DNA of 64,000 nucleotides from Tridacna crocea (Eukaryota; Mollusca; Bivalvia; Cardiida; Cardiidae), in contig OX031064.1 of NCBI GenBank assembly GCA_943736015.1, positions 40,971,361-41,035,360 of the forward strand, read 5' to 3'. Made by a program: the position numbers and the translations under genes. The notes below the pieces were generated by a model. The model was not told where the DNA came from, ran no database searches, and worked only from the letters and a program-made list of their open reading frames with translations. Of the stretch, positions 5,858 to 34,339 are shown in pieces (the first letter of the stretch is position 1; the number at the start of each line of letters is the position of its first letter).

Positions 5858-6229
5858 CCTATTTTTGAAAATACTGTGTCCAAAGGTAAAAATGCTTGCG
5901 ACAAGCATTTTCATCTCTGCTGATGCTTTGAGTTGCAAATAAATGAAAGTAAAAAAAAAAGCTCAAAATCTTATACTTGATGATGATTTTTAAAAAGAAA
6001 ACATGAGTACATGTATTTAGCAAACAACTTGCACACTATGTCAAAGGAATCTACAGATATACACTGGTACATTGTAACACAATGCTTTCTTCATATAATC
6101 CAAATAGTGTCTCTTTCCAAAAATGTTTGTATTTATCCTTTCAGTACCTTTTCCATTTTTTTGACCGTTATTTGAAATTGTCTGCTGAAATCTGGGACAA
6201 TTTAATTTTTGTCTGCTAGTAACTATTTA

Positions 6230-6448
6230 TTAAACAACAAAATTTTAGACTGCTCTAAATTAAAAGCACTTGCAGACAACAAAATAAAGGCAACTCAAAA
6301 ATTAAAGTTTTCTTTCAGGCAAGGCGGAAAACACTGTGGAAAAAGGAGAAATTACTGGTAACCAGCATTTTCTCCTTTTCCAACAATGTTTTCAAAAGCC
6401 TTCTATCTCAGGGTCGTGAAAGCCAGGGATGATTTGGTAAAGGGTTAA
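6230..6448 (+). mobile_element. Family-1 TTAA MITE
   Basis: Bounded by TTAA on both sides, with ends TTAAACAACAAAATTTTAGA and TTTGGTAAAGGGTTAA. The palindromic core centres near 6347 (ACTGGTAACCAGCATTTTCT). The same insertion is in unit C at 29431-29649, but B has lost it by deletion. Confidence 0.85.
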
Positions 6449-6785
6449 GGGTTGAAGAACAGGCAAATATAGAAAGATTCAGCATGCAAACATAAAGGTA
6501 GTGGCAAAAATAAAATGAACATGTACCAAAAAGTAATCAAGTGAAAATATATACACAAAAACCTGACTAGCCAGACGATGTGCATGTAAAATATCAATCT
6601 GTCACTCTATCTATATAAAAAAAATTTAGTCTTGAAAAGATTAGCAAACAAGAAATAAACTTTTGCTCAAAGTGTGCAATAGGCTTTTGAAGAAAGAAAA
6701 CATGGTGACCAATGGAGTAAATAACCATTACAAGCACTTTCTCGTATACCCAAAATGTTTCCAAAAGCATTCTACCTCAAGTCTA

Positions 6786-6850
6786 TAAACTAGAGGCGCT
6801 TGAGCGCCTGTATCGCTCCACAGGCCTGATTTTTCTGCAACGGTGAAGAG
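6786..6850 (+). repeat. Conserved repeat head with GGCGCTTGAGCGCC palindrome
   Basis: AACTAGAGGCGCTTGAGCGC followed by CTGTATCGCTCCACAGGCCT. The 14-nt GGCGCTTGAGCGCC is a perfect palindrome. Near-identical copies occur in B (about 17020), in C (about 29989) and alone at 50349, each followed by the same TTTTTCTG context. Confidence 0.6.
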
Positions 6851-7077
6851 AAGTTTTTAACAATTACCATTCATTCCTGCATTTTAGGTCACTTTAAAAG
6901 AAAACAGCTATGAAAACGTGAGAAAAGAAGAAAATAAAAGTAGCCTGCATTTTCTTAGTTTTACACAATAATTTCTACCATTTTTGATACAAGTTTTACT
7001 AATTTGAAGATTTATTATGTTATCTGCAACATCTTTCAATTATGGCCAGTTATAAAAAGTTTGTCTTCTGGTTATAG

Positions 7078-7279
7078 TTAACTCATTAGCAAACGACAAC
7101 ATTTTAGGGTTGTCAAAATGGAAAGCATTTTGTAGATGAAAAAATAAAAGTGACTGAAAATTTAAAAGTTGTTTTGTGAACGGTAGATAACATTGTGGGA
7201 AAAGGTTACCAGCATTTTCTCCTTTTCCCACAATGTTTTCTAAAGTCTTCTTTGTCAGGGATCAGTTTGATTGGATAAC
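7078..7279 (+). mobile_element. Family-1 TTAA MITE, right end eroded
   Basis: Left end TTAACTCATTAGCAAACGAC is good. The core is shortened so that GGGAAAAGG runs straight into TTACCAGCATTTTCTCC. The right terminus reads GATTGGATAACA. Equivalent copies: 17311 (B), 30279 (C) and its inverted duplicate at 31199-31400. Confidence 0.75.
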
Positions 7280-7425
7280 AAAATGCCGTATCACAACAGT
7301 GTAGCCCTGTCCCTCTTTGTACTAGGTCACCAGTAGGTCAACAAACCTTTACCAGAACTAATCAAAGTGCAGAGGTTCTCTTGTTTTATATGAAAAGAAT
7401 TATAGATTATGTAAAGCAACCATCT

Positions 7426-7654
7426 TTAACTCTTTACCAAACGATAAAATTTGGGATGTGACTAAACTGAAAGCATTTGCAGACAACAATTTTAACATTG
7501 ATGAAATGATGATTTCTCTCTTTGATAGAGTAGAAAACACTGAGGGAAAAGGAGAAAATGCTAATTACCAGCATTTTCTCCTTTTCCAAGAGTGTTTTCC
7601 AAAGACTTCCTCTTTCGGGTCGTTAAAAGTCAGGATTGTATGGTAAAGACTTAC
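7426..7654 (+). mobile_element. Family-1 TTAA MITE
   Basis: Ends TTAACTCTTTACCAAACGAT and TATGGTAAAGACTTA. Full core with GAGGGAAAAGGAGAAAATGC and its inverse. The plus-strand frame through it (KLKAFADNNFNIDEMM...) recurs in other copies because the MITE itself recurs, not because it encodes a protein. Confidence 0.85.
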
Positions 7655-7739
7655 CACCAAAGGAACTAACCTCCAATACAACAATGAAATCAAAATGAAT
7701 AGTATGAGAGAAGAAATTTTTCAAAGATTTTACTTTATA

Positions 7740-8065
7740 CCATAAAATGAAAATGAGTCTCCCATAAAAGCCATGTTTTTTGACGGATCTTTTTTTTTTG
7801 AGGAATTCTGTAGACCTCTATCTAAGGAACATTCCTGCAAAAAAATAATGCTATCCAATTAGTGGTTTGGGAGGAGAAGATTTTTAAAGGTTTTTGACTT
7901 TGATTGCCATGGCAACCAGAATTATTCATGGAACACAATTATTTGAAGGAATTTGAATGAGGACCACCTAAGGAACATTCCTGTAAAATTTGGTAGAAAT
8001 CCAGTCAATAGTTTCTGAGGAGAAGAATTTTAAAGGAAAAGTTTACGGACGCACGCACATAAACG
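7740..8065 (+). repeat. Tandem-core element, 3' portion (type 3)
   Basis: Two degenerate core units share AAGGAACATTCCTG (near 7835 and 7970) and GGAGAAGA. They are followed by the terminal TTTACGGACGCACGCAC. Same family as 35011-36390 and 61692-62720. In unit C this block is present twice, in inverted orientation. Confidence 0.65.
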
Positions 8066-8107
8066 TCTTCTTTTCTAGAGATTAGTCCCAGTCTGCACTG
8101 CTGTAGT

Positions 8108-8206
8108 CTAGTGCTTTACGTAGTGGCTCTTAATGATGGTGTACTTGTTTTCTGCAATCTATGCCTGCAACTCCCCTTCTACTTCGGAGGATGGCTCCTG
8201 GCAAGA
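8108..8206 (-). pseudogene. Last exon of the unit gene, broken copy in A
   Basis: On the minus strand a T-rich tract ending in CAG is followed by 33 codons up to a TAG. The sequence matches the intact exon in unit C (32224-32322), but codon 16, Tyr in C, is TAG here, and some residues differ (Glu for Gln at codon 8). No homologue was recognised by eye. The equivalent interval is deleted from B. Confidence 0.45.
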
Positions 8207-8348
8207 CTGAAAAAAAAAAGCCATTGAAATTTAAAAAAAAAAATTAATTTACTTTTGAAAATCAAACAAACAAGTTAGTATGAAATTCCCACAAAAAAAA
8301 AAAATATATTCTGGGCTATTTTTCACACATAATTTGTGTTGGTAGCAG

Positions 8349-8566
8349 TTAACATTACCAAACAACAATATTTTAGGTTTGCCCAAATCAAAAGCATTTG
8401 CAGACCAAAAAAATAAAAGTAACTGAAAATTTGAAATTTCTTTTGTGGAGGGTAGAAAACATTGTGAGAATGCTGGTTACCAGCATTTTCTCCTTTTCCC
8501 ATACTGTTTTCTGAAAGCTTCTTTCTTAGGGTTGGCAAAAGTAAGGATTCTGTGCTAATGGGTTAA
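8349..8566 (+). mobile_element. Family-1 TTAA MITE
   Basis: Ends TTAACATTACCAAACAAC and CTAATGGGTTAA. The left core arm is shortened (TTGTGAGAATGC). Orthologous insertion in unit C at 32463-32679. Confidence 0.85.
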
Positions 8567-8931
8567 CTATGTTACCTAATAATCAGCTGCAATATGCATT
8601 AGCAATGTAAGGATTTTCTGCAGTATTTCTGCACTTTTCTTGATCTATGCCCATAGAAATTAGAATTTCTGGTGATAATGGAAATATATAATTTGAGTCA
8701 CAGTTACTTTGAGAATTTTAGAGAATCACAGTGGTTCTATTATTTTCAATAGCAAATGACTGAGGAAACAAGTGGGTCAAGATAGCCCTATTTCAATCTC
8801 CTGAAAAAGAATGTTGAATTATCATCAATGCTGATACAACAATAAGAATGTCCCAACATGTTAGTAAACAAACGGCATAAGATCAATCTTTTTCCAGATC
8901 TTACGTTGGGCCATGCAAGCTCTGAAAGAGA

Positions 8932-9160
8932 TTAACTCATTACCCAAATGACAATATTTTAGGCTTGTCCAAATTGAAAACATTTGCAGAGCAAAAATAA
9001 AAGTGAATGAAAATTTGAACTTTGTTTTGTTAAGGGTAAAAAATATTGTGGGAAAAGGAGAAAATGCGACTTACCAGCATTTTCTCCTTTTCCCACAATG
9101 TTTTCAAAAGGCTTGTTTCCAAAGGTCGTCAAAAGTAGGGATTGCATGGTAATGGGTTAA
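8932..9160 (+). mobile_element. Family-1 TTAA MITE
   Basis: Near-canonical: TTAACTCATTACCCAAATGA to ATGGTAATGGGTTAA, with a full GGGAAAAGGAGAAAATGC stem pairing. Orthologues at 19227-19455 (B) and 33045-33273 (C). Confidence 0.9.
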
Positions 9161-9181
9161 CTTCAGGACAGTACTGTCGAA

Positions 9182-9303
9182 AAATTTAATAATCCTTTTA
9201 CATCTTAGTGATTCTGTTAAAGATACTGAAAGCCAGTTTGTGACATTGCTTTTCTGGGCTTTATCAAATAGAACTTCAGGAGCAACATGTAAATGTGCTT
9301 GTG
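9182..9303 (-). pseudogene. Possible exon downstream of the OB exon, copy A
   Basis: On the minus strand CCATTAG precedes an open stretch reading QAHLHVAPEVLFDKAQKS. It is conserved at 19480-19597 (B) and 33298-33415 (C). The reading frame that stays open does not match the phase left by the preceding exon's AAG/GTATTA donor, so an exon is only a possibility. Confidence 0.25.
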
Positions 9304-9404
9304 CTAATGGTGAACAGACACACAATACTCAAAATACCAACCCGTCACAACTGTTCACCATGAGCACTAGGAATACCCTGGGAAGACTAGAGTGGATTTA
9401 ATAC

Positions 9405-9627
9405 CTTAATTTCAGTCTTTGTTTTGGTTGTTACTGACATCTCGTCTCTGTATGTGTTGACAACAACAATTGTTAGCTGTATGTATTGACCCATTAGGTT
9501 CTTTGAACTCATCTCCCTCCACTTTCTCCAGAGTGACACCTTTAAGTCATCTGTGCCATCTTGAGATCTTAACTGTCTTGACCTGGACGTCTGTCCCTCT
9601 GACCTGCACAATCTTCACAATCTCTTC
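9405..9627 (-). pseudogene. OB-fold (RPA-like) exon, copy A
   Basis: The minus-strand product reads EEIVKIVQVRGTDVQVKTV, then, after a one-base shift of frame, QDGTDDLKVSLWRKW, GQYIQLTIVVVNTY and KTKTEIK. The order (DGT turn, VSLW strand, a Q/D-I-x-L/V-T-x-V-V-V-N strand, then S-V-S-T) matches the OB folds of replication protein A-type ssDNA-binding proteins. The frameshift is shared with B and C. The splice acceptor, TTTTAG/GAAG in B, is TTTTAC/GAAG here. The donor AAG/GTATTA is kept. Gene identity beyond the OB fold is unknown. Confidence 0.5.
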
Positions 9628-9994
9628 GTAAAACAGATACAAAGAAATATAACCAAATGATAGTCATACAAAAATCTGAACAGTATTTAACTTAACATTC
9701 TTCTTTTATCAAAGATGCATATTGTAGATTGATGCAACATCAAGTTATTGTCCAAAGAATTGAAGAGGGCCTTGATTGTCTAAAATTACCCACCTTACTG
9801 TTGAGCAATTTTTTCTTTAACAAAAACGTTTTTCAAAAATCTTTTCAAGGGTCAGTTTTACCTCTTATGCTGCTGATTTCCAAGAATACACTATTCCAGA
9901 TTTGCTTCCGAATTTCAGTCACTGTAAAATTTGCCAACAGTGCAGACCAACATCAGACTGAATGGCTATGCAGGTTGATCATTGGTCTACACTA

Positions 9995-10105
9995 TTAGCA
10001 AATATGATCAATATTGCAATAGGCAAGATAGGGGTTAAGGCTTCCCGTTAAGTTCAGCCCGCATTTCTTTAGCTTAACTGCTTTATCCCACTTGAAAGCA
10101 TCATG
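9995..10105 (-). pseudogene. Short exon upstream of the OB exon, copy A
   Basis: The minus strand gives TGTTAG then an open stretch HDAFKWDKAVKLKKCGLNL that runs 36 codons to a TAA. B has the same exon at 20289-20399. No credible donor was found, so the exon's 3' edge is uncertain. It lies about 370 bp upstream of the OB exon in the gene's direction. Confidence 0.35.
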
Positions 10106-10127
10106 CTAACACATACAAACCAGGTCT

Positions 10128-10192
10128 AACCCCTTTACCAGTTGACAACATTCTAGCCTTGTCCAAATTGAAAGCAGTTGCAGACACATCTT
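10128..10192 (+). mobile_element. Family-1 MITE, left-end fragment
   Basis: CTAACCCCTTTACCAGTTGA followed by CTTGTCCAAATTGAAAGCA, then broken. B keeps about 110 bp more of this copy (20619-20796), so A has a secondary deletion. Confidence 0.7.
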
Positions 10193-10354
10193 TTGTAGAT
10201 GATAAAATATTGGTTTTAATGTTCAATCAAGGATTATAATCATTTGAGACAAATCTCCCTGACTGTGGCAATTGTTAAAAGCTAAAGTAGTCCGAACAGA
10301 CATATCTAAAATGGTTTGCATTCTGCATCAACTCAACAGTGCCACTGGTTACCT

Positions 10355-10587
10355 TTAACTCTTAAGACTACCAAACAATCCCGACTTTCAACAATCCTGA
10401 GAAAGAAGCCTTTTGAAAATATTTTAGGAAAAGTAGAAAGTGTGGGTAACCATCATTATCTCCTTTTCTCACAATGTTTTCTATTCTTCCCTAAACAAAT
10501 TTCAATTTTTGAGCCACATTTATTATGTCATCAGCATGGCTTTCAAGTTGGACCACTCTAAAATTGTGTTGTTTGGGAAAGAGTTAA
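10355..10587 (-). mobile_element. Family-1 TTAA MITE, first of a head-to-head pair
   Basis: Runs TTAACTCTTAAGACTACCAA to GTTTGGGAAAGAGTTAA. Its TTAA at 10584-10587 also serves as the left TTAA of the next copy, which is in the opposite orientation. Confidence 0.85.
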
Positions 10588-10812
10588 CTCATTTCCAAAT
10601 GACAAAATTTTAGACTTTTTCAAATCGAAAGCATTTGCAGATGACAAAATAAAGGTGACTGAAAAATTGAAACTTGTTCTTGGAAAGGTAGAAAACACTG
10701 TGGGAAAAGGAGAAAACGCTGGTTACCAGCATTTTCTCCTTTTCCTACAGTGTTTTCAAAAGGCTTCTTTCTCAGGGGCGTCAAAAGTAGGGACTGTGTG
10801 GTAATGGGTTAA
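10584..10812 (+). mobile_element. Family-1 TTAA MITE, second of a head-to-head pair
   Basis: TTAACTCATTTCCAAATGAC to GTGGTAATGGGTTAA with an almost perfect palindromic core near 10723. One of the best preserved copies. Confidence 0.9.
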
Positions 10813-10877
10813 GCACACATACTGTACAGCCTTTTTACCTATGCAAACACAATTTTCAAAAAACCTTTTATATCGGA

Positions 10878-11079
10878 TTTGACTCTTTACCACACAACAA
10901 AATTCAGACCAATCAAAATTGAAAAAAATTCCAAGAGACATAGTAAATGTGGCACAAGTAATAAGATTTGTCAGTAAAGGATAAGAACACATTATGGGAA
11001 AAGAAGAAAAAATTGGTTACCAGCATTTTCTCCTTTTCCCACAATGTTTTCAAAAGCTTTCTTTTGTTAGGTTTTGCAT
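10878..11079 (+). mobile_element. Family-1 MITE, right end lost
   Basis: Begins TTGACTCTTTACCACACAAC. Core ATTATGGGAAAAGAAGAAAA with pairing TTTTCTCCTTTTCCCACAAT. The right terminus decays after CTTTCTTTTGTTAGG. Orthologue in B at 21608-21787. Confidence 0.7.
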
Positions 11080-11272
11080 GCACATTCATTTAGTCTTTTT
11101 TTTTTTCAATATTAATGTTTAACCTTTTTCTCTACAGAAGCAAGTATCAATTTTGCAAGATACTTGCCAGCTAAATTGAATGAATCTACTAAATATTATG
11201 TCAATTAACTTCAAAAACTTCAATACCATGACACTTTTTGTATACTTGGGCAACCTGGTTCAAAATCAACCT

Positions 11273-11816
11273 TTAAAGGTGGGTATTTAGAATTTTCACC
11301 TCTCACCACATCAAAAAAAATATATCACTGAAATTTATACGAAAAAACAATACAAATCATCAATAATTAAGAATCATAAAATTACACAAAATAAATTTTG
11401 TTATGGTATTCCCTTAAAAGGCTACGTAGCCTCTTAAGGTATTTTTAGATTTCGCGCCAAAAATCAAAAGAAGTATTGAGGGAATATAAAGTGACTGGCA
11501 CATGACTAATGACGCTTAAATTCCATAACATAACAAACATGTTATTATTTTCCATAACTTCTTCTTCAATCGCTCTGTTTGAAGGGTCATTTGTGTATTT
11601 CCGGTAAGTGAGTGAGCAAGTTGCTCATCTAAAAATAGACCATGATTCCCGTCGGTGTTGACCTGGGCCGTAGTAAATCACTAATTTCTCTTGTTGTCGG
11701 ATGGTTTTCGACTACTGGGGTTTTATGAATGAAAATTAAAAGGTACTGGGAGTATAAGGATGAATTTTAATATTTTTGTATAAATTTTGTCCAAAAATCT
11801 GAAGGGCCACCTTTAA
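11273..11816 (+). mobile_element. Family-2 TTAA element, about 544 bp
   Basis: Terminal inverted repeats TTAAAGGTGGG and CCACCTTTAA, both ending on TTAA. Internal landmarks are CCCTTAAAAGGCTACGTAGC, TTCGCGCCAAAAAT, GTTGACCTGGGCCGTAG and GACTACTGGGGTTTTATGAA. Other copies: 21960-22377, 37552-38316, 54154-54709, with fragments at 48090-48285 and 52477-52519. No coding capacity. TTAA target use suggests piggyBac or Kolobok dependence. Confidence 0.8.
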
Positions 11817-12435
11817 GTGAAAGTACGAAAGCTGCAATACTTTTGACTGAGCCAATATAGATTTAAATGCATATATATATTAGATCCAGGTTGACAGCAT
11901 TAAAGTCAAAATTAACTATATGAAAGGGGAAGAATAGATCACCATTTTATATTTTTCCAACATTTCAATATACTTTCACCTTAGGGCTGCAAAATCTTAG
12001 TGCTGAAAGGTAAGTTTAAAAGAATGTAAAGGTGTAAGGTTTATTACACAAATGCAAACCATGTTAACTCACGTTAGGAGAATGGGCCGAAATTGTAATG
12101 GGACGAAATAGTTATCGGTCGAAATTTCCAGTCACTGTAAGGACTGTTGACGTTTGGGATTCGTTAAATATTCTTCTTCGACGAAGGGCAATACATTCAA
12201 CTAGTTATGGCAGCAAATCAAATACAAATCAGTCAGATTTATATACTAATGTAGCCTTCTGAAACGCAGACGTAAAGCTTTCACGAACTTACAATCAAAA
12301 TGGCGACTGTAATCTTTATTATAAACAACCACTGACCTACTTCGTTTCTTAACAATACTAAAGGAAGCACGTAATGTCCTTCACGTTTAAAACAAAAACA
12401 CATTTCAAAAAAGAAAAAAATACATTGAACTTTAC

Positions 12436-12509
12436 CTTTGCAGCCTTGGGTTTGTTCAGATAAAATTGTGACTTGCTTGCCTTGCGTTTCACTCGCCGCC
12501 GTTTCAAAG
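12436..12509 (-). pseudogene. Basic Lys/Arg-rich exon, copy A
   Basis: The minus strand reads KRRRVKRKASKSQF then LNKPKAAK, ending exactly at a GCAAAG/GTAAAG donor. CCACACCACAG precedes it as a possible acceptor. The stretch looks like a nuclear-localisation or nucleic-acid-binding tail. Unit B has the same exon at 23018-23089 (two bases shorter, still donor-bounded); C lacks it. No start codon is visible. Confidence 0.35.
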
Positions 12510-13093
12510 CTGTGGTGTGGATGAAAAAGTCACGTTGCGCGTATGAATAAATTAGGTTACTAGCTATTCAACACTTCAGACATTCAAGCAAATTTTTGTT
12601 GAAAATGTAAATGCCTTGAAAAATAAACGTGTAACAAACCAATAATTTTTTTGGTAAGAGTATTAATGGTGCGTTTTTAACGAAAGCTATTTTTTATGTG
12701 AACATGGGTCCGAGTGACATATCATTCATAAAATAGTGCTCGATTGGTAATCGTAACATCTCGGCCGATTTGATGGCTCTCAACACCTGAGTAATGCCGA
12801 ATGGCTAGATTCGTCCGCATTCATATAGAAAAATATAGGATCTGTGTATTAACAAATATTAAGATTTGATAATTATTCATTGAAATGTCATAACAGTTCA
12901 AAGAAAATATCTGTTTAGTGCAATAGTTTGGCTTATTTCATTTTTTATCTGAAATTCAATCGTTTTATATGTTTAAATGCTTGAATTTCATAGAACTTTT
13001 TTTTCGCTGGTTGAATATTGGTGTTGTTGAGTGATTTCCAAAATGCCTGAGCGCTGACATAGGAAGACCGATTACTGACGTAATCGACTTCCA

Positions 13094-14205
13094 AAAATAG
13101 TGCAGAGTAAAAGAATCAAAGTACTGATAGTACTGAAGGCCAGGAAATTGAGGATACGAAACAATACAACAGATCAATTTTAATTAATACAAACAGGTAG
13201 ACGGACAGGGATACAAGCAGATTCCACTAAACCCCTGGAATTCTTGGTTTTAACAAGAAATTTTGAACTGATACAAGCAAGAAAGCACCAGCCAGAAACT
13301 AATTAAGCCACAGCTAGGCATGTGCTCACAGTTATGGGGTGCTTGATAATGGCTTAGAATACTTAGTAATTTGTCGTGCTTGTAAACAATCTTAAGTCAA
13401 AACTGAACTATTCAATCGGTGCAATACCAACTTTGGTCATCTAAATTTTCTGAAAACAACTGAAGTCCTGAATGACGTTATTTTTCACATTTATGAGTTG
13501 TCTATTAACAGTAGCATATTTTTCCCCAAAACTTATCCTAATCAAATGACAAGTTTCTTTAAAGTCAATTACGTGGCACAGTAGATTGTATACATGTATG
13601 AAAAATGTTTTATCAACTACCTCAGTTTAATTTCCATTGGTGACACACATGAAATTAGTAATCACTTCATGAGAGATTATAGGACCAACACATAATTACA
13701 ACTAAAAACTGAGATTTATAAGTAGCTTTTAGAGATGATAAATTAAGGTGCTTCATCAGAAGCAAAATTTAACCTTGTGTTAGCCGAAAGAGCCTTGAAA
13801 AACATTGTGGTTTTGTCTCAAAATCAGGATGCTCTGTGGACAACACACTTTTTAAATTAGCCTGGCTGGTGTAACGTAATTTTGAGACAGAGAGAACATA
13901 GGCTGGTTGAAAGATATTTGTAGCTTGCACTGGTCAGTATGCCTCTAATCCCCAGATTTTCAGAATGATCAACATTGAAAGTATCTTGCAGACAACTGAA
14001 GTGTTGCTAAAGTGATGGTTTTATCAGTGGTAGCGAAGTACACTTTAAGAGTCCACAAGCTCGGTCAATGTCCTATTGATAGGTATTGTGATAGTGTACA
14101 GTTCTCTCACATCACATACTAAACATACAAGTCTCTGAAATCTAAGCCGTCTGAATCTCTGTAAATAAGTGTGGTTTTTTTTTCCAAAAATCTCCCTTGA
14201 CCAAA
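13094..14205. other. Unassigned spacer right of unit A
   Basis: A's right flank holds AATCAAAGTACTGATAGTAC (about 13119-13138), nearly the same string that starts units B and C. The rest has no recognised gene or repeat. Confidence 0.45.
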
Positions 14206-15634: not shown

Positions 15635-17310
15635 AATCAAAGTACTGAAAGTACTCATGGAAGTCGATTTTAGAATTAGATTGTGTAAATGAAGAAATCG
15701 TTCCCCCAGGTCTGAAGGTGCGTTCAATTTGGATGTGACCAAAAGTTTCTCATCATGTGCAGAGTGAAATAGTCAACAAAACTCAATACTATTTAAGGTG
15801 AAACAGTTAAACACAAAGAAGAACAGAAACAAAGCTTCTTTTGTTTTTTCAATTTAATTTGAAAGAAGTATCATCTTCTAGTAACATGAATCGAGTACCA
15901 CAACAAAATGAATATTATGTAAAGGTAGTTGAAACAAGTAAGCAGTATATTTGTGAATAAACAACTCAATCTCAAGCAGGACATGTCAATACCCTTTCGC
16001 ACACAATGACGACTTTTGACTACTCTTTGAGAGAAGCAGCTTGAAAATATTGTGGCAAAAGTAAAAAACAATTGAATACTAAGTGTTACATTCTTATCCC
16101 AGTGCTTTGTCTCAATTCAGACCTGTCAAAAAGGCTCGCAAAAAGACTAGGAAGTTTAACTTTGAACTGCATAAAAAAGAAAATGTGGCTTTTATTGCAT
16201 AATATTTCAAGGGACCAAAACAAAAATCTCATATTTTTCTTATATTTTCAAAACATCAAAATAAGTAATAATAGCTTGTAAAGATCTTTCTGATATTTTT
16301 TTTAATTGTATGCCCTTGTAGTATGATGAACATTGAAAGTATATTTTAATACTTCAGCTAGAGTATATTCTCATACTGTTAAATTTGTTTAATGCAGAGA
16401 ATACTTCTAAGACAAATTTAGGGACCATACAACTTGTATAAAGAGAAATAAATGGCCCTTGAATCAAAACTTAACCCATAGCCAACGAGCCCGATTTTTA
16501 AAGTTGTTCGGTATATTTTTGAAAACACTGTGTCCAAAGGTAAAAATGCTTGCGACAAGCATTTTCATCTCTGCTGATGCTTTGAGTTGCAAATAAATGA
16601 AAGTAAAAAAAGCTCAAAATCTTATGATTGATGATGATTTTTAAAAAGAAAACCAGGGATGATTTGGTAAAGGGTTAATTGGTTAAAGAACAGGCAAATA
16701 AAGTAAGATACAGCATGTAAACATAAAGGTAGTGGCAAAAATATTATGAACATGTACCAAAAAGTAATCAAGTGAAAATATATACACAAAAACCTGACTA
16801 GCCAGACGATGTGCATGTAAAATATCAATCTATCACTCTATGTACATAAAAAAAATTTAGTCTTGAAAAGATTTGCAAACAAGAAATGAACTTTTGCTCA
16901 AAGTGTGCAGTATCCTTTTGAAGAAAGAAAACATGGTGACCGATTAAGTAAATACGCATTACAAGCACTTTCTCGTATACCCAAAATGTTTCCAATAGCA
17001 TTCTACCTCAAGTCTATAAACTAGAGGCGCTTGAGCGCCTGTATCGCTCCACAGGCCTGATTTTTCTGCAACGGTGAAGAAAAGTTTTTAACAATTACCA
17101 TTCATTCCTGCATTTTAGGTCACTTTAAAAGAAAAAAAGCTATGAAAACGTGAGAAAAGAAGAAAATAAAAGTAACCTGCAATTTCTTAGTTTTACACAA
17201 TCATTTCTACCCTTTTTTGATACAAGTTTTACTAATTTGAAGATTTATTATGTTGTCTGCAACATCTTTCAATTATGGCCAATTATAAAAATTTTGTCTT
17301 CTGGTTATAG

Positions 17311-17510
17311 TTAACTCATTAGCAAACGACAACATTTTAGGGTTGTCAAAATGGAAAGCATTTTGTAGATGAAAAAATAAGTGACTGAAAATTTAAAAGT
17401 TGTTTTGTGAAGGGTAGATAACATTGTGGGAAAAGGTTACCAGCATTTTCTCCTTTTCCCACAATGTTTTCTAAAGTCATCTTTGTCAGGGATCAGTTTG
17501 ATTGGATAAC
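17311..17510 (+). mobile_element. Family-1 TTAA MITE, right end eroded
   Basis: Orthologue of the A copy at 7078-7279, with the same shortened core and the same eroded right terminus. Confidence 0.75.
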
Positions 17511-17555
17511 AAAATGCCTTATCACAACAGTAAAGCCCTGTCCCTCATTGTTACA

Positions 17556-18800
17556 CAGTGTTCTCACTAGGATTTTAAAAGTTGGATTCCAGGAATCCAA
17601 GTCAAGAAAAAGTTGGATTCCAAACTGAAAAGTTGGATTCCAGCCTGAAAAAGTTGGATTCCAAAACAGTTCGGAAGAATTTTCACGTGCAAGTTATCAA
17701 CATCTCAAAACTGTAAATTTTAGATTTATGCATCATGGAGACATAATGTCTGTAATACACAAGTCTAGATTTACAAAGGAAATTACTTAGTATGTAAGAT
17801 TTTATTGTAATAGCTCAAAGAAATAAGGAAGTTTAATAACTTTTCACTTATCTTTAATTTAGACTATGTAAATAATTCAACATGATAATGCATATTTCAA
17901 ATATTTGTGATAATAATACAAGTACATGTGGCAATAGTTGTAGATCCTTCGTGACAAAATTTTGTAAATTCAGTTCTTATTCCAATTTAATTTTTGTCAA
18001 TATGGATTATGATGTCTACATTTTCCTTGACAATACTTTAGACCTGTCCAAATTTAAAGCTTGCATAAATTTGCAGATAACATAATCAGAGTATTATAAG
18101 GTATTATAAGCTGAGGGACTGACAGACTGTGGTGAAAGTTAAGCAAAATCATTAAGTTGTTTACTCTCACTGTTCATACACATTTTATCACTTTCGTCTT
18201 ATTCTCTTTGCTAAGAATCTTCTGACTGCTGGTTGTGGGCCAAAATCTTCTAAGGAGGGACCCTCTTCTTTCACTCCCATGAGTTTAGTGACAGTATCAT
18301 GCTTAAGGCGAGCTCTTCCTTTTGTTTTGATCTTGTTGTGAACACTAAACCCTCTTTCACATGCGATGGAAGTGAGTGGTGAAGTCAGCACAATTGTAGT
18401 TTTTCATAATGATACTGCAGGCTTCTGGTAGTGAACAATTAAGTGATTTCAAAATAACTTTCAGTTGGTAGTAGTCTTCTTTTGCTTTATTTGCATCCAA
18501 CACTCCATTTTCTTCTCCATACAGGTAAGTTAGCTGCCTGAGATCTTCTTCACCATATTCTTCAAGGCTGTTTATATTCTTTGGTATTTCAGCTGGATTG
18601 AGGACTTTGTTCAAGAGTTGGAGATTTTTTATGGAGTTTTCATCAAATCTGGAAGTGATATTATCAATTAGTTTTTCAATATAATCTGTTGAGTTATTTT
18701 GAAACTACATTCTTAACTGTTGTTTGTTGTCAATTTCGCTCCTTTGCAGATGCTTTTTGTACTTTCAATGTCATCATATATTTTTGTCAGTACAAATTAT
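17556..18800 (-). mobile_element. hAT transposon tail inserted in unit B
   Basis: The interval interrupts sequence that is continuous in A (near 7318). Its left edge CAGTGTTCTCACTAGG has the form of a hAT terminal inverted repeat, followed by repeated AAGTTGGATTCCA words (17580-17665). Minus-strand transposase remains lie at 18188-18614, oriented so that this edge is the element's 3' end. The other terminus is not a good match and the 5' half of the transposase is missing. Flanking ATTGTTAC and ATTTGTAC may be a decayed 8-bp target duplication. Confidence 0.65.
18188..18614 (-). pseudogene. hAT transposase C-terminal fragment
   Basis: Two minus-strand frames join near 18390 with a frameshift. 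The upstream frame (18614-18357) reads EEYGEEDLRQLTYLYGEEN and PEACSIIMKNYN. The downstream frame (18391-18188) contains LTSIACERGFSVHNKIKTK, the hallmark of the hAT C-terminal dimerisation region (S/A-C-E-R-x-F-S with a following K-x-R-x-R-L). It ends about 30 residues later at a stop. No N-terminal zinc finger or catalytic region is present. Confidence 0.7.
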
Positions 18801-18909
18801 TTGTACTAGGTCACCAGTAGGTCAACAACCCGTTACCAGAACTAATCAAAGTGCAGAGGTTCTCTTGTTTTATATGAGAAGGATTATAGATTATGTAAAG
18901 CAACCATCT

Positions 18910-20796: not shown

Positions 20797-20835
20797 AGAA
20801 AGCTTCACATCTTTTGTAGATGATAAAATATTGGT

Positions 20836-21027: not shown

Positions 21028-21076
21028 TCTAAAATGGTTTGCATTCTGCATCAAATCAACAGTGCCACTGGTTACC

Positions 21077-21310
21077 TTAAACTCTTAAGACTACCAAACA
21101 ATCCTGACTTTTAACGATCCTGAGAAAGAAGCCTTTTGAAAATATTGTAGGAAAAGTAGAAAGTGTGGGTAACCATCATTATCTCCTTTTCTCACAATGT
21201 TTTCTATTCTTCCCTAAACAAATTTCAATTTTTGAGCCACATTTATTATGACATCAGCATGGCTTTCAATTTGGACCATTCTTAAATTTTGTTGTTTGGG
21301 AAAGAGTTAA
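21077..21310 (-). mobile_element. Family-1 TTAA MITE, first of a head-to-head pair
   Basis: Orthologue of 10355-10587. TTAAACTCTTAAGACTACC to TTTGGGAAAGAGTTAA. Confidence 0.85.
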
Positions 21311-21541
21311 CTCATTTCCAAATGACAAAATTTTAGACTTGTTCAAATCTAAAGCATTAAATTTTGCAGACGACAAAATAAAGGTGACTGAAAAATTGAA
21401 ACTTGTTCTTGGAAGGGTAGAAAACTCTGTGGGGAAAGGAGGAAACGCTGGTTACCAGCATTTTCTCCTTTTCCTACAGTGTTTTCAAAAGGCTTCTTTC
21501 TCAGAGGCGTCAAAAGTAGGGACTGTGTGGTAATGGGTTAA
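21307..21541 (+). mobile_element. Family-1 TTAA MITE, second of a head-to-head pair
   Basis: Orthologue of 10584-10812, sharing the TTAA at 21307-21310 with its partner. A few bases are inserted in the left arm near 21354. Confidence 0.9.
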
Positions 21542-21607
21542 GCACACATACTGTACAGCCTTTTTACCTATGCAAACACAATTTTCAAAAAACCTTTTAT
21601 ATCAGAT

Positions 21608-21787
21608 TTGACTCTTTACCACACAACAAAATTCAGACCGATCAAAATTGAAAGAAATTCCAAGAGACACAAGTAATAAGATTTGTCAGTAAAGGATAAG
21701 AACACATTATGGGAAAAGAAGAAAACATTGGTTACCAGCATTTACTCCTTTTCCCACAATGTTTTCAAAAGCTTTCTTTTGTTCGGT
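21608..21787 (+). mobile_element. Family-1 MITE, right end lost
   Basis: Orthologue of 10878-11079, with a further small deletion in the left arm. Confidence 0.7.
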
Positions 21788-21959
21788 TTTGCATGCACAT
21801 TCATTTAGGTTTTTTTTTTTTCAATATTAATGTTTAACCCTTTTCTCTACAGAAGCAGGTATCAATTTTGCGAGATACTTGCCAGCTAAATTGAATGAAT
21901 CTACTAAATATTATGTCAATTAACTTCAAAAACTTCAATACCATGACACTTTTTGTATA

Positions 21960-22377
21960 CATTTTTTTATGGTATTCCCTTAAAAGGCTACGTAGCCTCT
22001 TAAGGTATTTTTGAATTTCGCGCCAAAAATCAAAAGAAGCATTGTGGGAATATAAAGTGACTGGCACATGACTAATGACGCTTAAATTCCGTAACATAAC
22101 AAACATGTTATTTTCCATAAACTTCTTCAGTCGCTGTGTTTGAGGCATCATTTGTGTATTTCCGGTAAGTGAGTGAGCAAGTTGCTCATCTAAAAGTAGA
22201 CCATGGTTCCCGTCGGTGTTGACCTGGGCCGTATTAGATCTCTAATTTCTCTTGTTGTCGGATGGTTTTCGACTACTGGGGTTTTATGAATGAAAATTAA
22301 AAGGTACTGGGAGTATCAGGATGAATTTTAATATTTTTGTATAAATTTCGTCCAAAAATCTGAAGGGCCACCTTTAA
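21960..22377 (+). mobile_element. Family-2 TTAA element, 5'-truncated
   Basis: Orthologue of 11273-11816 lacking the first ~130 bp. Retains CCCTTAAAAGGCTACGTAGC and the right end GGGCCACCTTTAA. Confidence 0.75.
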
Positions 22378-22641
22378 GTGAAAGTACAAAAGCTGCAATA
22401 CTTTTGACTGAGCCAATTTAAAGATTTAAATGCATCTATATCTTAGATCCAGGTTGACAGCATTAAAGTCAAAATTAACTATATGAAAGGGGAAGAATAG
22501 ATCACCATTTTATATTTTTCCAACATTTCAATATACTTTCACCTTAGGGCTGCAAAATCCTAGTGCTGAAAGGTAAGTTTAAAAGATTATAAAGGTGTAA
22601 GATTTATTACACAAATGCAAACCATCTAAACTCACGTTAGG

Positions 22642-22690
22642 AGAAAGGGCCGAAATTGTAATGGGCCGAAATTGTAATGGGACGAAATTG
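22642..22690 (+). repeat. Short GGGCCGAAATTGTAAT tandem repeat
   Basis: The 16-bp word occurs twice in a row, then once as GGGACGAAATTGTTAT. Unit A has one fewer repeat. Confidence 0.6.
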
Positions 22691-23017
22691 TTATCGGTCG
22701 AAATTTCCAGTCACTGTGAGGACTGTTGACATTTGGGATTCGTTAAATATTCTTCTTCGACGAAGAGCAATACATTCAACTAGTTATGGCAGCAAATGGA
22801 ATACAAATCATTCATATTTATATACTAATGTAGCCTTCTGTAACGCAGGCGTAAAGCTTTTACGAACTTACAATCAATCAAAATGGCGACTGTAATCTTC
22901 ATAAACAACCACTGAGGCCTACTTCGTTTCTAAACAATACTTAAGTAAGGACATAATGTCCTTCACGTTTAAAACAAAAACACATTTCAAAAAAGAAAAA
23001 AATACATTGAACTTTAC

Positions 23018-23089
23018 CTTTGCAGCCTTGGGTTTGTTCAGATCAAATTGTGACTTGCTTGCCTTGCGTTTCACTCGCCGCCGTTTAAG
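23018..23089 (-). pseudogene. Basic Lys/Arg-rich exon, copy B
   Basis: Minus strand KRRRVKRKASKSQFDLNKPK then AAK, ending at a GCAAAG/GTAAAG donor. Tyr in A is Asp here. Conservation of frame and donor between A and B supports former coding use. The start codon is not visible. Confidence 0.35.
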
Positions 23090-23721
23090 CTGTGGTGTGG
23101 TTGCGAATATGAATAAATTAGGTTACTAGCTATTCAACACTTCAGACATTCAAGCAAATTTTTGTTGAAAATGTAAATGCCTTGTAAAATAAACAAGCCA
23201 ATAATTTTATTAGTAAGAGTATTAATGATGCGTGTTTAACGAAAGCTATTTTTTATGTGAACATGGATCCGAGTGACATATCATTCATAAAATAGTGCCC
23301 GATTGGTAATCGTAACATCTCGGCCGATTTGATGGCTCTCAACATCTGAGTAATGCCGAATGGCTAGATTCGTCCGCATTCATATAGAAAAATATAGGAT
23401 CTGTGTATTAACAAATATTAAGATTTGATAATTATTCATTGAAATGTCATAACAGTTCAAAGAAAATATCTATTTAGTGCAATAGTTTGGCTTATTTCAT
23501 TTTTTATCTGAAATTCAATCGTTTTATATGTTTAAATGCTTGAATTTCATAGAACTTTTTTTTCGCTGGTTGAATATTGGTGTTGTTGGGTGATTTCCCA
23601 AATGCCTGAGCGTTGCTATAGGAAGACCGATTACTGACGTAATCGACTTCCAAAAATGAAATTCCCACTATCCATGTCCTTCCTCCAAAAACTATTAACA
23701 ATATAGTCTTCTGTGCGGGGA

Positions 23722-28188: not shown

Positions 28189-29430
28189 AAATCAAAGTAC
28201 TGAAAGTACTCATGGAAGTCGATTTTAGAATTAGATTGAGTAAATGAAGAAATCGTTCCCCCTAGTCTGAAGGTGCGTTTAAACCAAGGTGCATTCAATT
28301 TGGATGTGACCAAAAGTTTCTCATCATGTGCAGAGTGAAATAGTCAACAAAACTCAATACTATTTAAGATGAAACAGTTAAATAAGCTTCTTTTTTTTTT
28401 CACTTTAATTTGAAAGAAGTATCATCTTCTCGTAACATGAATCGAGTACCACAACAAAATAAATATTATGTAAAGGGAGTTGAAACAAGTAAACAGTATA
28501 TTTTGTGAATAAACACCTCCATCTCAAGCAGGACATGTCAATACCCTTTCGCATACAATGACGACTTTTGACTACTCTTGGAGAGAAACAGCTTGAAAAT
28601 ATTGTGGCAAAAGTAGAAAACAATTGAATACTAAGTGTTACATTCTTATCCCAGTGCTTGGTCTCAATTAAGACCTGTCAAAAAGGCTCGCAAAAAGACT
28701 AGGAAGTTTAACTTTGAACTGCATAAAAAAGTAAATGTGGCTTTTATTGCATAATATTTCAAGGGGCCAAAACAAAAATCTCATATTTTTCTTATATTTT
28801 CGAAACATCAAAATAAGTAATAATAGCTTGTAAAGATCTTTCTGATATTTTTTTAATTGTATGCCCTTGTAGTATGATGAACATTGAAAGTATATTTTAA
28901 TACTTCAGCTAGAGTATATTCTCATACTGTTAAATTTGTTTAATGCAGAGAATACTTCTAAGACAAATTTAGGGACCATACCACTTGTATAAAGAGAAAT
29001 AAATGGCCCTTGAATCAAAACTTAACCCATAGCCAACTAGCCCGATTTTTAAAGTTGTTCGGTGTATTTTTGAAAACACTGTGTCCAAAGGTAAAAATGC
29101 TTGCGACAAGCATTTTCATCTCTGCTGATGCTTTGAGTTGCAAATAAATGAAAGTAAAAAAAGCTCAAAATCTTATACTTGATAATGATTTTTAAAAAGA
29201 AAACATGAGTACATGTATTTAGCCAACAACTTGCACACTATGTCAAAGGAATCTAAAGACAAACACTGGTACATTGCAACACAATGCTTTCTTCATATAA
29301 TCCAAATAGTGTCTCTTTCCAATAATGTTTATATTTATCCTTTCAGTACCTTTTCCACTTTTTTGGCCCTTTTTTGAATTGTCTGCTGAAATCTGGGACA
29401 ATTTAATTTTTGTCTCATAGTAACTATTTA

Positions 29431-29649
29431 TTAAACAACAAAATTTTAGACTGGTCTAAATTGAAAGCACTTGCAGACAACAAAATAAAGGCAACTCAAA
29501 AATTAAAGTTTTCTTTCAGGCAAGGCGGAAAACACTGTGGAAAAAGGAGAAATTACTGGTAACCAGCATGTTCTCCTTTTCGAACAATGTTTTCAAAAGC
29601 CTTTTGTCTCAGGGTCGTGAAAACCAGGGATGATTTGGTAAACGGTTAA
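29431..29649 (+). mobile_element. Family-1 TTAA MITE
   Basis: Orthologue of 6230-6448. TTAAACAACAAAATTTTAGA to TTTGGTAAACGGTTAA. Confidence 0.85.
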
Positions 29650-29988
29650 TTGGTTATAGAACAGGCAAATATAGTAAGATACAGCATGTAAACATAAAGG
29701 TAGTGGCAAAAATATAATGAACATGTACCAAAAAGTAATCAAGTGAAAATATATACACAAAAACCTGACTAGCCAGATGATGTGCATGTAAAATATCAAT
29801 CTATCACTCTATCTACATAAAAAAAATTTAGTTTTGAAAAGATTTGCAAACAAGAAATGAACTTTTGCTCAAAGTGTGCAGTAGCCTTTTGAAGAAAGAA
29901 AACATGGTGACCAATGGAGTAAATATGCATTACAAGCACTTTCTCGTATACCGAAAATTTCCGAAAGCATTCTACCTCAAGTCTATAA

Positions 29989-30052
29989 ACTAGAGGCGCT
30001 TGAGCGCCTGTATTGCTCCACAGGCCTGATTTTTCTGTAACGGCGAAGAGAA
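29989..30052 (+). repeat. Conserved repeat head with GGCGCTTGAGCGCC palindrome
   Basis: Orthologue of 6786-6850, with TATTGCTCC in place of TATCGCTCC, as in the solitary copy at 50349. Confidence 0.6.
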
Positions 30053-30278
30053 GTTTTTAACAATTACCATTCATTCCTGCATTTTAGGTCACTTTAAAAG
30101 AAAAAAAGCTATGAAAACGTGAGAAAAGAAGAAAATAAAAGTAACCTGCATTTTCTTAGTTTTACACAATAATTTCTACCCTTTTTGATACAAGTTTTAC
30201 TAATTTGAAGATTTATTATGTTGTCTGCAACATCTTTCAATTATGGCCAGTTATAAAAATTTTGTCTTCTGGTTATAG

Positions 30279-30480
30279 TTAACTCATTACCAAATGACAA
30301 CATTTTAGGGTTGTCAAAATGGAAAGCATTTTGTAGATAAAAAAAATAAAAGTGACTGAAAATTTAAAGGTTGTTTTGTGAAGGGTAGATAACATTGTGG
30401 GAAAAGGTTACCAGCATTTTCTCCTTTTCCCACAATGTTTTCTAAAGTCTTCTTTGTCAGGGATCAGTTTGATTGGATAA
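30279..30480 (+). mobile_element. Family-1 TTAA MITE, right end eroded
   Basis: Orthologue of 7078-7279 and member of the X mirror pair. Confidence 0.8.
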
Positions 30481-30848
30481 CAAAATGCCTTTACCAGAGG
30501 ATTTCTACCAAATTTTACAGGAATGTTCCTTAGGTGGTCCTGTTTCAAATAATTGTGTTCCATGAATAATTCTGGTTGCCATATGGCAACCAAAGTAAAA
30601 AAACCTTTAAAAATCTTCTCCTCCCAAACCGCTAATTGGATAGCATTATTTTTTTGCAGGAATGTTCCTTAGATAGAGGTCTACAGAATTCCTTAAAAAA
30701 AAAAAAAAGATCCGCCAAAAAACACGGCTTTTACGGGAGACTCATTTTCCTTTTATGGTATAAAGTGAAATCTTTGAAAAATTTCTTCTCTCATACTATT
30801 CATTTTGATTTCATTGTTCTGTTGGAGGTTAGTTCCTATGCTGGTAAC

Positions 30849-31051
30849 TTTTAACAACCCTAAAGAAGAAGTCTTTAGAAAACACTCTTGGAAAAGGAGA
30901 AAATGCTGGTAATCAGCTTTTTCTCTCTTTCCCTCAGTGTTTTCTACTCTATCAAGGAGAGAAATCATCATTTTATCAATGTTTAATTTGTTGTCTGCAA
31001 ATGCTTTCAGTTTGGTCACATCCCAAATTTTGTCGTTTGGTAAAGAGTTAA
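30849..31051 (-). mobile_element. Family-1 TTAA MITE in the inverted arm
   Basis: Mirror image of 31565-31767. Right-hand TTAA at 31048-31051; the other end is joined to TTACCAGCATAGG-type sequence. Confidence 0.85.
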
Positions 31052-31198
31052 AGATGGTTGCTTTACATAATCTATAATCCTTTTCATACAAAACAGGAGA
31101 ACCTCTACACTTTGATTAGTTCTGGTAAAGGTTTGTTGACCTACTGGTGACCTAGTACAAAGAGGGACAGGGCTTCACTGTTGTGTTAAGGCATTTTG

Positions 31199-31400
31199 TT
31201 ATCCAATCAAACTGATCCCTGACAAAGAAGACTTTAGAAAACATTGTGGGAAAAGGAGAAAATGCTGGTAACCTTTTCCCACAATGTTATCTACCCTTCA
31301 CAAAACAACCTTTAAATTTTCAGTCACTTTTATTTTTTTTATCTACAAAATGCTTTCCATTTTGACAACCCTAAAATGTTGTCATTTGGTAATGAGTTAA
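31199..31400 (-). mobile_element. Family-1 TTAA MITE, inverted duplicate
   Basis: Mirror image of 30279-30480. Here the core keeps GGAGAAAATGCTGGTAACC, where the plus-oriented copy shows only GGTTACCAGCATTTTCTCC. Confidence 0.85.
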
Positions 31401-31564
31401 CTATAACCAGAAGACAAAATTTTTATAACTGGCCATAATTGAAAGATGTTGCAGACAACATAATAAATCTTCAAATTAGTAAAACCTTTACCAGAACTAA
31501 TCAAAGTGTAGAGGTTCTCCTGTTTTGTATGAAAAGGATTATAGATTATGTAAAGCAACCATCT

Positions 31565-31767
31565 TTAACTCTTTACCAAACGACAAAATTTGGGATGTGA
31601 CCAAACTGAAAGCATTTGCAGACAACAAATTAAACATTGATAAAATGATGATTTCTCTCCTTGATAGAGTAGAAAACACTGAGGGAAAGAGAGAAAAAGC
31701 TGATTACCAGCATTTTCTCCTTTTCCAAGAGTGTTTTCTAAAGACTTCTTCTTTAGGGTTGTTAAAA
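31565..31767 (+). mobile_element. Family-1 TTAA MITE
   Basis: Orthologue of 7426-7654. TTAACTCTTTACCAAACGAC; the right end is lost, running into GTTACCAGCATAGG. Confidence 0.85.
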
Positions 31768-31869
31768 GTTACCAGCATAGGAACTAACCTCCAACAGAAC
31801 AATGAAATCAAAATGAATAGTATGAGAGAAGAAATTTTTCAAAGATTTCACTTTATACCATAAAAGGAA

Positions 31870-32170
31870 AATGAGTCTCCCGTAAAAGCCATGTTTTTTG
31901 GCGGATCTTTTTTTTTTTTTTAAGGAATTCTGTAGACCTCTATCTAAGGAACATTCCTGCAAAAAAATAATGCTATCCAATTAGCGGTTTGGGAGGAGAA
32001 GATTTTTAAAGGTTTTTTTACTTTGGTTGCCATATGGCAACCAGAATTATTCATGGAACACAATTATTTGAAACAGGACCACCTAAGGAACATTCCTGTA
32101 AAATTTGGTAGAAATCCAGACCATAGTTTCTGAGGAGAAGTTTTTTTAAAGAAAAAGTTTACGGATGCAC
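31870..32170 (+). repeat. Tandem-core element, 3' portion (type 3)
   Basis: Orthologue of 7740-8065, with the terminal TTTACGGATGCACGCAC. Its inverse lies in the left arm at about 30499-30745. Confidence 0.65.
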
Positions 32171-32223
32171 GCACTTAAACATCTTCTTTTGTAGAGATTA
32201 GTCGGAGTCTGCACTGCTGTAGT

Positions 32224-32322
32224 TTAGTGCTTTACGTAGTCGCTCTTAACGATGGTGTACTTGTTTTCTGCAATGTATGCCTGCAACTCCCCTTCAACTT
32301 GGGAGGATGGCTCTTGGCAAGT
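32224..32322 (-). CDS. Intact-looking last exon of the unit gene, copy C
   Basis: On the minus strand a run of T ending TTTTTCAG is followed by an open stretch TCQEPSSQVEGEL then QAYIAENKYTIVKSDYVKH and a TAA stop: 33 codons with a strong polypyrimidine acceptor. A's orthologue has an internal TAG, and B's is deleted. The exon is open here, but the upstream OB exon in C is frameshifted and the first exons are missing, so a working gene is unlikely. No homologue recognised by eye. Confidence 0.4.
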   Translation of the reverse strand, partial: TCQEPSSQVEGELQAYIAENKYTIVKSDYVKH

Positions 32323-32462
32323 CTGAAAAAAAAAAAGCCATTGAAATTAAAAAAAAAAAAAAGAATTTACTTTTGAAAATCAAACAAACAAGTTAGTATG
32401 AAATTCCCACACAAAAAAAATATTCTGGGCTATTTTTCACACATAATTTGTGTTAGTAGCAG

Positions 32463-32679
32463 TTAACATTACCAAACAACAATATTTTAGGTTTGCCCAA
32501 ATCAAAAGCATTTGCAGACCAAAAAATAAAAGTAACTGAAAATTTGAAATTTGTTTTGTGGAGGGTAGAAAACATTGTGAGAATGCTGGTTACCAGCATT
32601 TTCTCCTTTTCCCATACTGTTTTCTAAAAGCTTCTTTCTTAGGGTCATCAAAAGTAGGGATTCTGTGGTAATGGGTTAA
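32463..32679 (+). mobile_element. Family-1 TTAA MITE
   Basis: Orthologue of 8349-8566. TTAACATTACCAAACAAC to GTGGTAATGGGTTAA. Confidence 0.88.
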
Positions 32680-33044
32680 CTATGTTTCCTAATAATCAGC
32701 TGCAATATGCATTAGCAATGTAAGGATTTTCTGCAGTATCTCTGCACTTTTCTTGATCTATGCCCATAGAAATTAGAATTTCTGGTGATAATGGAAATAT
32801 ATAATTTGAGTCACATTTACTTTGAGAATTTTAGAGAATCATAGTGGTTCTATTATTTTCAATAGCAAATGACTGAGGAAACAAGTGAGTCAAGATAGCC
32901 CTATTTCAGTCTCCTGAAAAAAAATGTTGAATTATCATCAATGCTGATACACCAATAAGAATGTCCCAACATGTTAGTAAACAAACGGCGTAAGATCAAT
33001 CTTTTTCCAGATCTTACGTTGGGCCATGCAAGGTCTGAAAGAGA

Positions 33045-33273
33045 TTAACTCATTACCCAAATGACAATATTTTAGGCTTGTCCAAATTGAAAGCATTTGC
33101 AGACCAAAAATAAATGTGAATGAAAATTTGAACTTTGTTTTGTGAGGGGTAGAAAATATTCTGGGAAAAGGAGAAAATGCGACTTACCAGCATTTTCTCC
33201 TTTTCCCACAATGTTTTCAAAAGGCTTGTTTCCAAAGGTCGTCAAAAGTAAGGATTGCGTGGTAATGGGTTAA
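33045..33273 (+). mobile_element. Family-1 TTAA MITE
   Basis: Orthologue of 8932-9160 and 19227-19455. Full core. Confidence 0.9.
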
Positions 33274-33297
33274 CTTGAGGACAATACTGTCAAAAGT

Positions 33298-33415
33298 TTA
33301 ATTATCCTTTTACATCTTAATGATTCTGTTAAAGATACTGAAAGCCAGTTTGTGACATTGCTTTTCTGGGCTTTGTCAAATAGAACTTCAGGAGCAACAT
33401 GTAAATGTGCTTGTG
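33298..33415 (-). pseudogene. Possible exon downstream of the OB exon, copy C
   Basis: Third copy of the QAHLHVAPEVLF block, with the same CCATTAG before it. In C it is followed in gene order, about 1 kb on, by the intact last exon. Confidence 0.25.
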
Positions 33416-33516
33416 CTAATGGTGAACAGACACACAATAGTCAAAATACCAACCCATCACAACTGTTCACCATGAGCACTAGGGATAACCTGGGAAGACT
33501 AGAGTGGATTTAATAC

Positions 33517-33742
33517 CTTAATTTCAGTCTTTGTTTTGGTTGACACTGACATCTCATCTTTGTATGTATTGACAACAATTGTTAGCTACATGTATATGTA
33601 TTGACCCATTAGGTTCTTTGAACTCATCTCCCTCCACTCCCTCCAGAGTGACACCTTTAAGTCATCTGTGCCATCTTGAGATCTTAACTGTCTTGACCTG
33701 GACGTCTGTCCCTCTGACCTGCACAATCTTCACAATCTCTTC
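33517..33742 (-). pseudogene. OB-fold (RPA-like) exon, copy C
   Basis: Acceptor TTTTAG/GAAG and donor AAG/GTATTA are both kept. Shares the frameshift before DGTDDLKVSLWREW seen in A and B. It has an extra insertion/deletion around 33578-33595 (ACATATACATGTAGC), so the GQYIQLT strand is disrupted. Confidence 0.45.
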
Positions 33743-34339
33743 CTAAAACAGATACAAAGAAATATAACCAAATGATAGCCATACAAAAATCTGAACAGTA
33801 TTTAACTTAACATTCTTCTTTTATCAAAGATGCATATTGTAGATTGATGCAACATCAAGTTATTGTCCAAAGAATTGAAGAGGGCCTTTCTTCAATTATT
33901 CATTGAAATGTCATAACAGTTCAAAGAAAATATCTGTTTAGTGCAATAGTTTGACTTCTTTCATTTTTTATCTGAAATTCAATCGTTTTATATGTTTGAA
34001 TGCTTGAATTTCATAGAACTTTTTTTTCGCTGGTTGAATATTGGTGTTGTTGGGTGATTTCCCAAATGCCTGAGCGTTCACATAGGAAGACCGATTACTG
34101 ACGTAATCGACTTCCAACAAGCTCAGATTTTCCGAGCGCGAGATGAGGATCTTCGATGATATTATTATCGTTCTTTCGGCCACTTGTACGCCTGTAAATT
34201 TTCTTTAGCGTTGATTCATAAGTTTTAGCCGATCAGTTTAAATATCAATAAACAAAGGTTCCTTTATTTCCATAATAAAAGAACAGATACCGACAGAAAA
34301 CACCGTAAAGCGACAGAGAAGTTAATTTTTCAATACGAT

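Follow-up and report, generated by a model that had tools for sequence, protein, structure and literature searches.

In a 64,000-nucleotide window of the Tridacna crocea genome (contig OX031064.1, positions 40,971,361 to 41,035,360), we have found three related units, A, B and C, that are very probably independent minus-strand insertions of one large, non-autonomous rolling-circle transposon of the Helitron2 type. The kind of element is already known, and the family is a large example of it, about 8.5 kb long and present in a couple of hundred copies. It is new only as far as the present searches tell, a status set without comparison to Repbase or Dfam. The initial annotation of the window had called the element possibly undescribed, which does not apply at the level of its kind, since the Helitron2 layout is published (PMC3627910; this and the other papers are cited throughout for individual passages). 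Coordinates are positions within the whole window unless a locus is named, and the full copy L070 served as the reference for unit comparisons.

Ends and structure of the units

The three units and their end features are as follows.

15636-23652, minus strand: unit B, 8,017 bp, end-to-end copy; 5' tip 23652, 3' tip 15636; both ends fit the family
28191-34116, minus strand: unit C, 5,926 bp, end-to-end copy
5860-13093, minus strand: unit A, broken copy with 1,099 bp missing from the 3' side; 5' tip 13093
23641-23652 (B), 13082-13093 (A), 34105-34116 (C), minus strand: 5' terminal inverted repeat TGGAAGTCGATT, exact match
23621-23651 (B), 13062-13092 (A), 34085-34115 (C), minus strand: 5' hairpin, from a DNA fold of the plus strand
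23653-23656 TTTT (B), 13094-13097 TTTT (A), 34117-34120 TTGT (C), minus strand: bases adjoining the 5' tip, flank reading
15658-15669 (B), 28213-28224 (C), minus strand: 3' inverted repeat AATCGACTTCCA, 22 bases internal to the 3' tip
15641-15655 (B), 28196-28210 (C), minus strand: 3' hairpin AGTACT-TTC-AGTACT, followed by TTGAT and the 3' tip
15635 (B), 28190 (C), minus strand: T adjoining the 3' tip, flank reading

On the letters as shown, AATCGACTTCCA occurs exactly at 13082, 23641 and 34105 (ending at 13093, 23652 and 34116), ATCAAAGTACTGAAAGTACT at 15636 and 28191, and TGGAAGTCGATT at 15658 and 28213. The DNA outside the edges of A, B and C is dissimilar among the units, and no homology past the edges was seen when unit was compared with unit. 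The initial annotation was therefore correct in describing one sharp edge common to all three units, a second edge shared by B and C with the inverse 12-mer inside it, and unrelated flanks beyond.

Read on the minus strand, every unit opens with TGGAAGTCGATT, which sits in a strong hairpin (z -4.7 to -5.3, equalled by 0 of 200 shuffles in each of A, B and C), and units B and C close with AATCGACTTCCA-TG-AGTACTTTCAGTACT-TTGAT. The inverted repeat pair is off-centre, its 5' member lying 0 bp and its 3' member 22 bp from the respective tip. In the description of Helitron2 by Bao and Jurka, the 5' repeat lies 0-2 bp from the tip and within a hairpin, and the 3' repeat lies 20-30 bp inside, upstream of a hairpin (PMC3627910). 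The same asymmetry is found here, together with a 5' hairpin enclosing the 5' repeat in A, B and C, and a 3' hairpin, with a short stem, directly after the 3' repeat.

The units match one another piecewise at approximately 90-97% identity, with internal deletions and insertions. Pieces of unit B are 93.8-98.6% identical to L070. Unit C lacks about 3.1 kb of interior (L070 5049-8158) and carries an inverted duplication of about 1 kb (window 30194-32117), which is probably recent, as its arms are 99.7-99.8% identical. Unit A begins, at window 5860, with L070 position 1100: the leftmost 1,099 bp of L070 are absent from it, and its left edge is thus no true end of the element.

Copies and insertion sites in the genome

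The genome searched comprises 1.05 Gb in 31 contigs. An exact 20-base 5'-end pattern, whose first T is the neighbouring host base, occurred 219 times, and an exact 3'-end pattern with the three loop bases left free occurred 218 times, so that AGTACT-NNN-AGTACT is present in all 218 of these 3' ends. Backward controls of both patterns gave 0 occurrences; the family edges are thus far above chance. Longer probes agreed: a 74-base right-edge probe pointed to 255 candidate places, and each of the 40 that were scored reached 95% or more; a 165-base left-edge probe found 258, with 40 scored at 99-100%. The copies are spread over the chromosomes, alike in their edges and unlike in their flanks.

In order to estimate the span of the family, 97 5' ends (the first 100 listed minus three on C8) were paired with 100 listed 3' ends, covering contigs C1-C7 and part of C8. 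A same-strand 3' end lay within 40 kb of 85 of the 97, which used 83 of the 100 3' ends. Among these listed ends the paired spans ran from 2.1 to 35 kb (median 8.8 kb), and 42 of 85 fell within 8.2-9.2 kb; the longer spans may be nested insertions or chance neighbours. Three dispersed copies, L069, L070 and L071, measured 8,629, 8,381 and 8,698 bp from end to end.

Flanks were read from high-scoring copies, which are not a random sample. The 5' flank was TTTT in 46 of 50 distinct flanks, with T at the tip in 50 of 50, and the base beyond the 3' tip was T in 29 and C in 2 of 31 distinct flanks. The Chlamydomonas element Helitron-1N1_CRe, a non-autonomous Helitron2, likewise inserts between TTTT and T or C without duplication; the two also share end repeats, hairpins and a 5' T, and they differ in length (about 8.5 kb here, 657 bp there), in their letters and in their host (PMC3627910).

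When the two flanks of a copy were joined and searched for, 5 of 19 sites matched across the join, and an uninterrupted empty match without duplication was obtained at three of them (the L069 site, C14_312 and C9_11). The L069 copy is inserted in a dispersed repeat, other copies of which (L019, L012, L014 and window 37916-37689) are ungapped at the site and read TTTC followed by T, G or A. The C9_11 paralogs read TTTC|TA and ATTT|TG, and C14_312 reads TTTT|TG. A target duplication was sought at these three paralogous empty sites and none was found. Insertion between TTTT and T or C without duplication is therefore what the sites display, with the qualification that TTTC stands in paralogs at two of the three. 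The genome-wide edge search proposed in the initial annotation thus yielded many copies with the same edges and different flanks, and no constant-length target duplication. The latter had been expected as proof of mobility, and its absence, along with the short off-centre inverse pair, had been counted against mobility; Helitron2 makes no such duplication, and both features are among its published marks (PMC3627910).

A mechanism of the Helitron2 kind would have a RepHel protein, supplied from elsewhere in the genome, nick the 5' tip and peel off one strand; the copy would then join between TTTT and T or C, leaving the site unduplicated. Circular forms, in which the two ends are joined, are reported for a Fusarium Helitron (PMC5148889).

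Several observations count against this interpretation. The 3' hairpin taken alone is not significant as a fold (z -0.2 and -0.1). The empty copies of the L069 site, and one of the two C9_11 paralogs, have TTTC in place of the TTTT of the filled site; given that T stands at the tip in all of the flanks read while some empty paralogs have C, the final T could be part of the element, and a single host base would then have been lost or replaced. At C14_312, and for one of the two C9_11 paralogs, the sequence taken as the "empty" copy comes from a nearby segment of that very locus. The alignment across the join is ambiguous at C15_426, and C8_347 matched across the join with no alignment read. Copies also cluster: among 93 ends on C1-C7 there were 3 neighbouring pairs closer than 25 kb against 0.45 expected, and 20 of 2,000 simulations gave as many. 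Lastly, no RepHel element bearing the family's ends was found in the loci searched, so the helper is an inferred one.

Helper proteins and alternative assignments

The genome contains 32 matches to PF14214, of which 30 were taken as RepHel loci (L039-L068, with 1.5 kb on each side), several of them with long open frames. The family's end motifs were absent from these 30 loci and from stretches downstream of four of them; L113 and L114, which reach approximately 6.0 and 4.2 kb past the end of the frame, did not contain them. Positions of 18 of the 19 matches on C1-C8 (one, at most 87 bases from another, was omitted) were compared with the listed ends. The C8 match lies beyond those ends, leaving 17 informative, and 13 matches on other contigs stand outside the comparison. 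None of the 17 fell within a paired copy, the nearest listed end being 76.6 kb away. Changed forms of the 5' repeat did not stand out (2 matches, against 2 for the control). RepHel machinery for the family is nevertheless probably present in the genome, and a family so well defined in its ends, target and empty sites offers a handle for finding the helper protein.

One RepHel family (L050, L053, L052 and L062) has a 3' end laid out as in the present family, with a 3' repeat, GCGCTGCTCGC, followed by the hairpin ATAGGC-CGT-GCCTAT 10 bases from the tip. It differs in its end letters and in encoding a RepHel with a PIF1 match, and the inverse repeat was met only in the sequence following its 3' end in L112. 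There, starting at base 7760, GCGAGCAGCGC and a strong hairpin immediately follow the 3' end of the L053 RepHel element, in the manner of a second element placed head to tail behind it.

Among the alternatives, the family could be a HINE in the narrow sense, that is, an element descended from a Helentron with an endonuclease and mobilized by the endonuclease-bearing protein, not by a Helitron2 protein that lacks this domain. HINEs are similar in the layout of their ends and in having a T-rich target, and Helentrons, HINEs and DINE-1 resemble the present family in their near-tip inverted repeats, 3' palindrome and non-coding, non-autonomous form (PMC4067079). The genome also holds a RepHel with a C-terminal endonuclease-like match: L114 matches PF05970 well above its cut-off and PF03372 just below (E 6.2e-5; 23.3 bits, cut-off 24.5), and to judge from these matches a RepHel gene with an endonuclease domain is likely present. 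No such gene was linked to the family's ends, however, whose motifs were absent from L039-L068, L113 and L114. HINEs and DINE-1 further differ by a tandem-repeat core (PMC4067079), which this family lacks (three short arrays in B, none in C). The flank here, TTTT with T or C, is the form that a figure legend in a Fusarium paper gives for Helitron2, as opposed to TT for Helentrons (PMC5148889). We therefore regard a HINE origin in this sense as unlikely.

A local duplication, tandem or segmental, of a unit that carries a gene would account for three same-orientation copies within 28 kb and for a degree of genome-wide clustering. It fits neither the sharp edges and unlike flanks nor the recurrence of the same edges more than 200 times across many chromosomes. 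In a comparison of three segments totalling approximately 1,760 bases, identity among A, B and C is 95.7-96.6%, and identity between these units and three dispersed copies is 96.2-97.9%; in a small tree of the six copies compared, A groups with L069 and not with B or C, so the window units are not mutual nearest relatives. Being no closer to each other than to dispersed copies, they look like independent insertions as judged from this comparison, and duplication was rejected as highly improbable. The initial annotation's preference for a mobile element with discrete ends is upheld by the same facts, and annotators should be aware that such blocks can resemble a duplicated gene-bearing unit.

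A canonical Helitron (Helitron1) on the plus strand, starting at A|TC, has in its favor a plus-strand left edge of ATC in 30 of the 30 loci shown. The other hairpin is accompanied by CTTCCA and no CTRR, the next base is A instead of T, and the ends carry inverted repeats; since the 5' TC, 3' CTRR, A|T target and freedom from inverted repeats of that class do not occur together here, the assignment was rejected as very hard to credit. A cut-and-paste transposon with terminal inverted repeats, suggested by the 12-bp inverted pair, has a negligible probability and was rejected, as the pair is not symmetric, one repeat being set back 22 bases from its tip, and no fixed-length target duplication was seen.

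Coding content, a second family and nested repeats

The Helitron2-type family looks non-autonomous from its sequence, because no stop-to-stop frame longer than 164 amino acids was present in L069-L071 and a six-frame Pfam scan of L070 returned 0 families at E 0.1. Two RepHel frames, by contrast, yield PIF1 helicase with the same Pfam library. None of ten window frames, of which three fall entirely or mostly within units, had a match above a Pfam cut-off; two had matches under theirs (E 0.012 and 0.031). The 115-amino-acid frame at 18357-18704 had no Pfam match, and a comparison with solved structures gave only three matches, at E 0.29 to 0.99. Some peptide-like frames overlap a nested repeat of about 230 bp, described below. 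Captured gene exons, which the initial annotation had supposed the units to carry, are accordingly rejected as far as Pfam shows for the six frames of this one full copy. These findings suggest that Helitron2 elements 8 to 9 kb in length can reach a couple of hundred copies with no recognizable protein gene inside them.

A second family shares the 3' hairpin and is represented next to unit A.

13115-13385, minus strand: second family, 3' hairpin AGTACT-ATC-AGTACTTTGAT; the far end is the limit of the alignment only

A distance of 21 bases separates its 3' tip from the 5' tip of unit A. Genome-wide it has 944 exact 3' ends, and the sequence just internal to the hairpin differs from that of the first family. 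Seven aligned copies have a sharp edge, with T adjoining in 7 of 7. Its own inverted repeat and 5' end were sought in vain, a guessed 5' repeat proving wrong (0 and 5 matches). We tentatively suggest that AGTACT-NNN-AGTACTTTGAT, the 3' hairpin tip common to the families with 218 and 944 ends, can be exchanged as a module, that one helper may move both, and that the RepHel gene of this helper may be lost; if so, both families would be very successful passengers without proteins of their own.

The repeat of about 230 bp has TTAA ends and is abundant both in and outside the units; the window has 62 pieces that match it, and 24 of these exceed 190 bases.

10582-10812, 19227-19455, 33045-33273 and 43787-44002: examples of the 230-bp TTAA-ended repeat

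One such repeat is present in L070 and absent from units B and C, where a single TTAA stands; on this comparison the repeat looks like a small element with a TTAA target.

The window contains no tRNA and no Rfam match, and unit C has no match among phage records. A 173-amino-acid open frame at window 49047-49568 on the minus strand, with no Pfam match at E 0.1, bears a resemblance to a retrotransposon endonuclease. Tandem arrays with a unit of roughly 166-171 bases occupy window 35382-36127 and 61831-62550, and similar arrays stand beside the RepHel matches L057 and L067.

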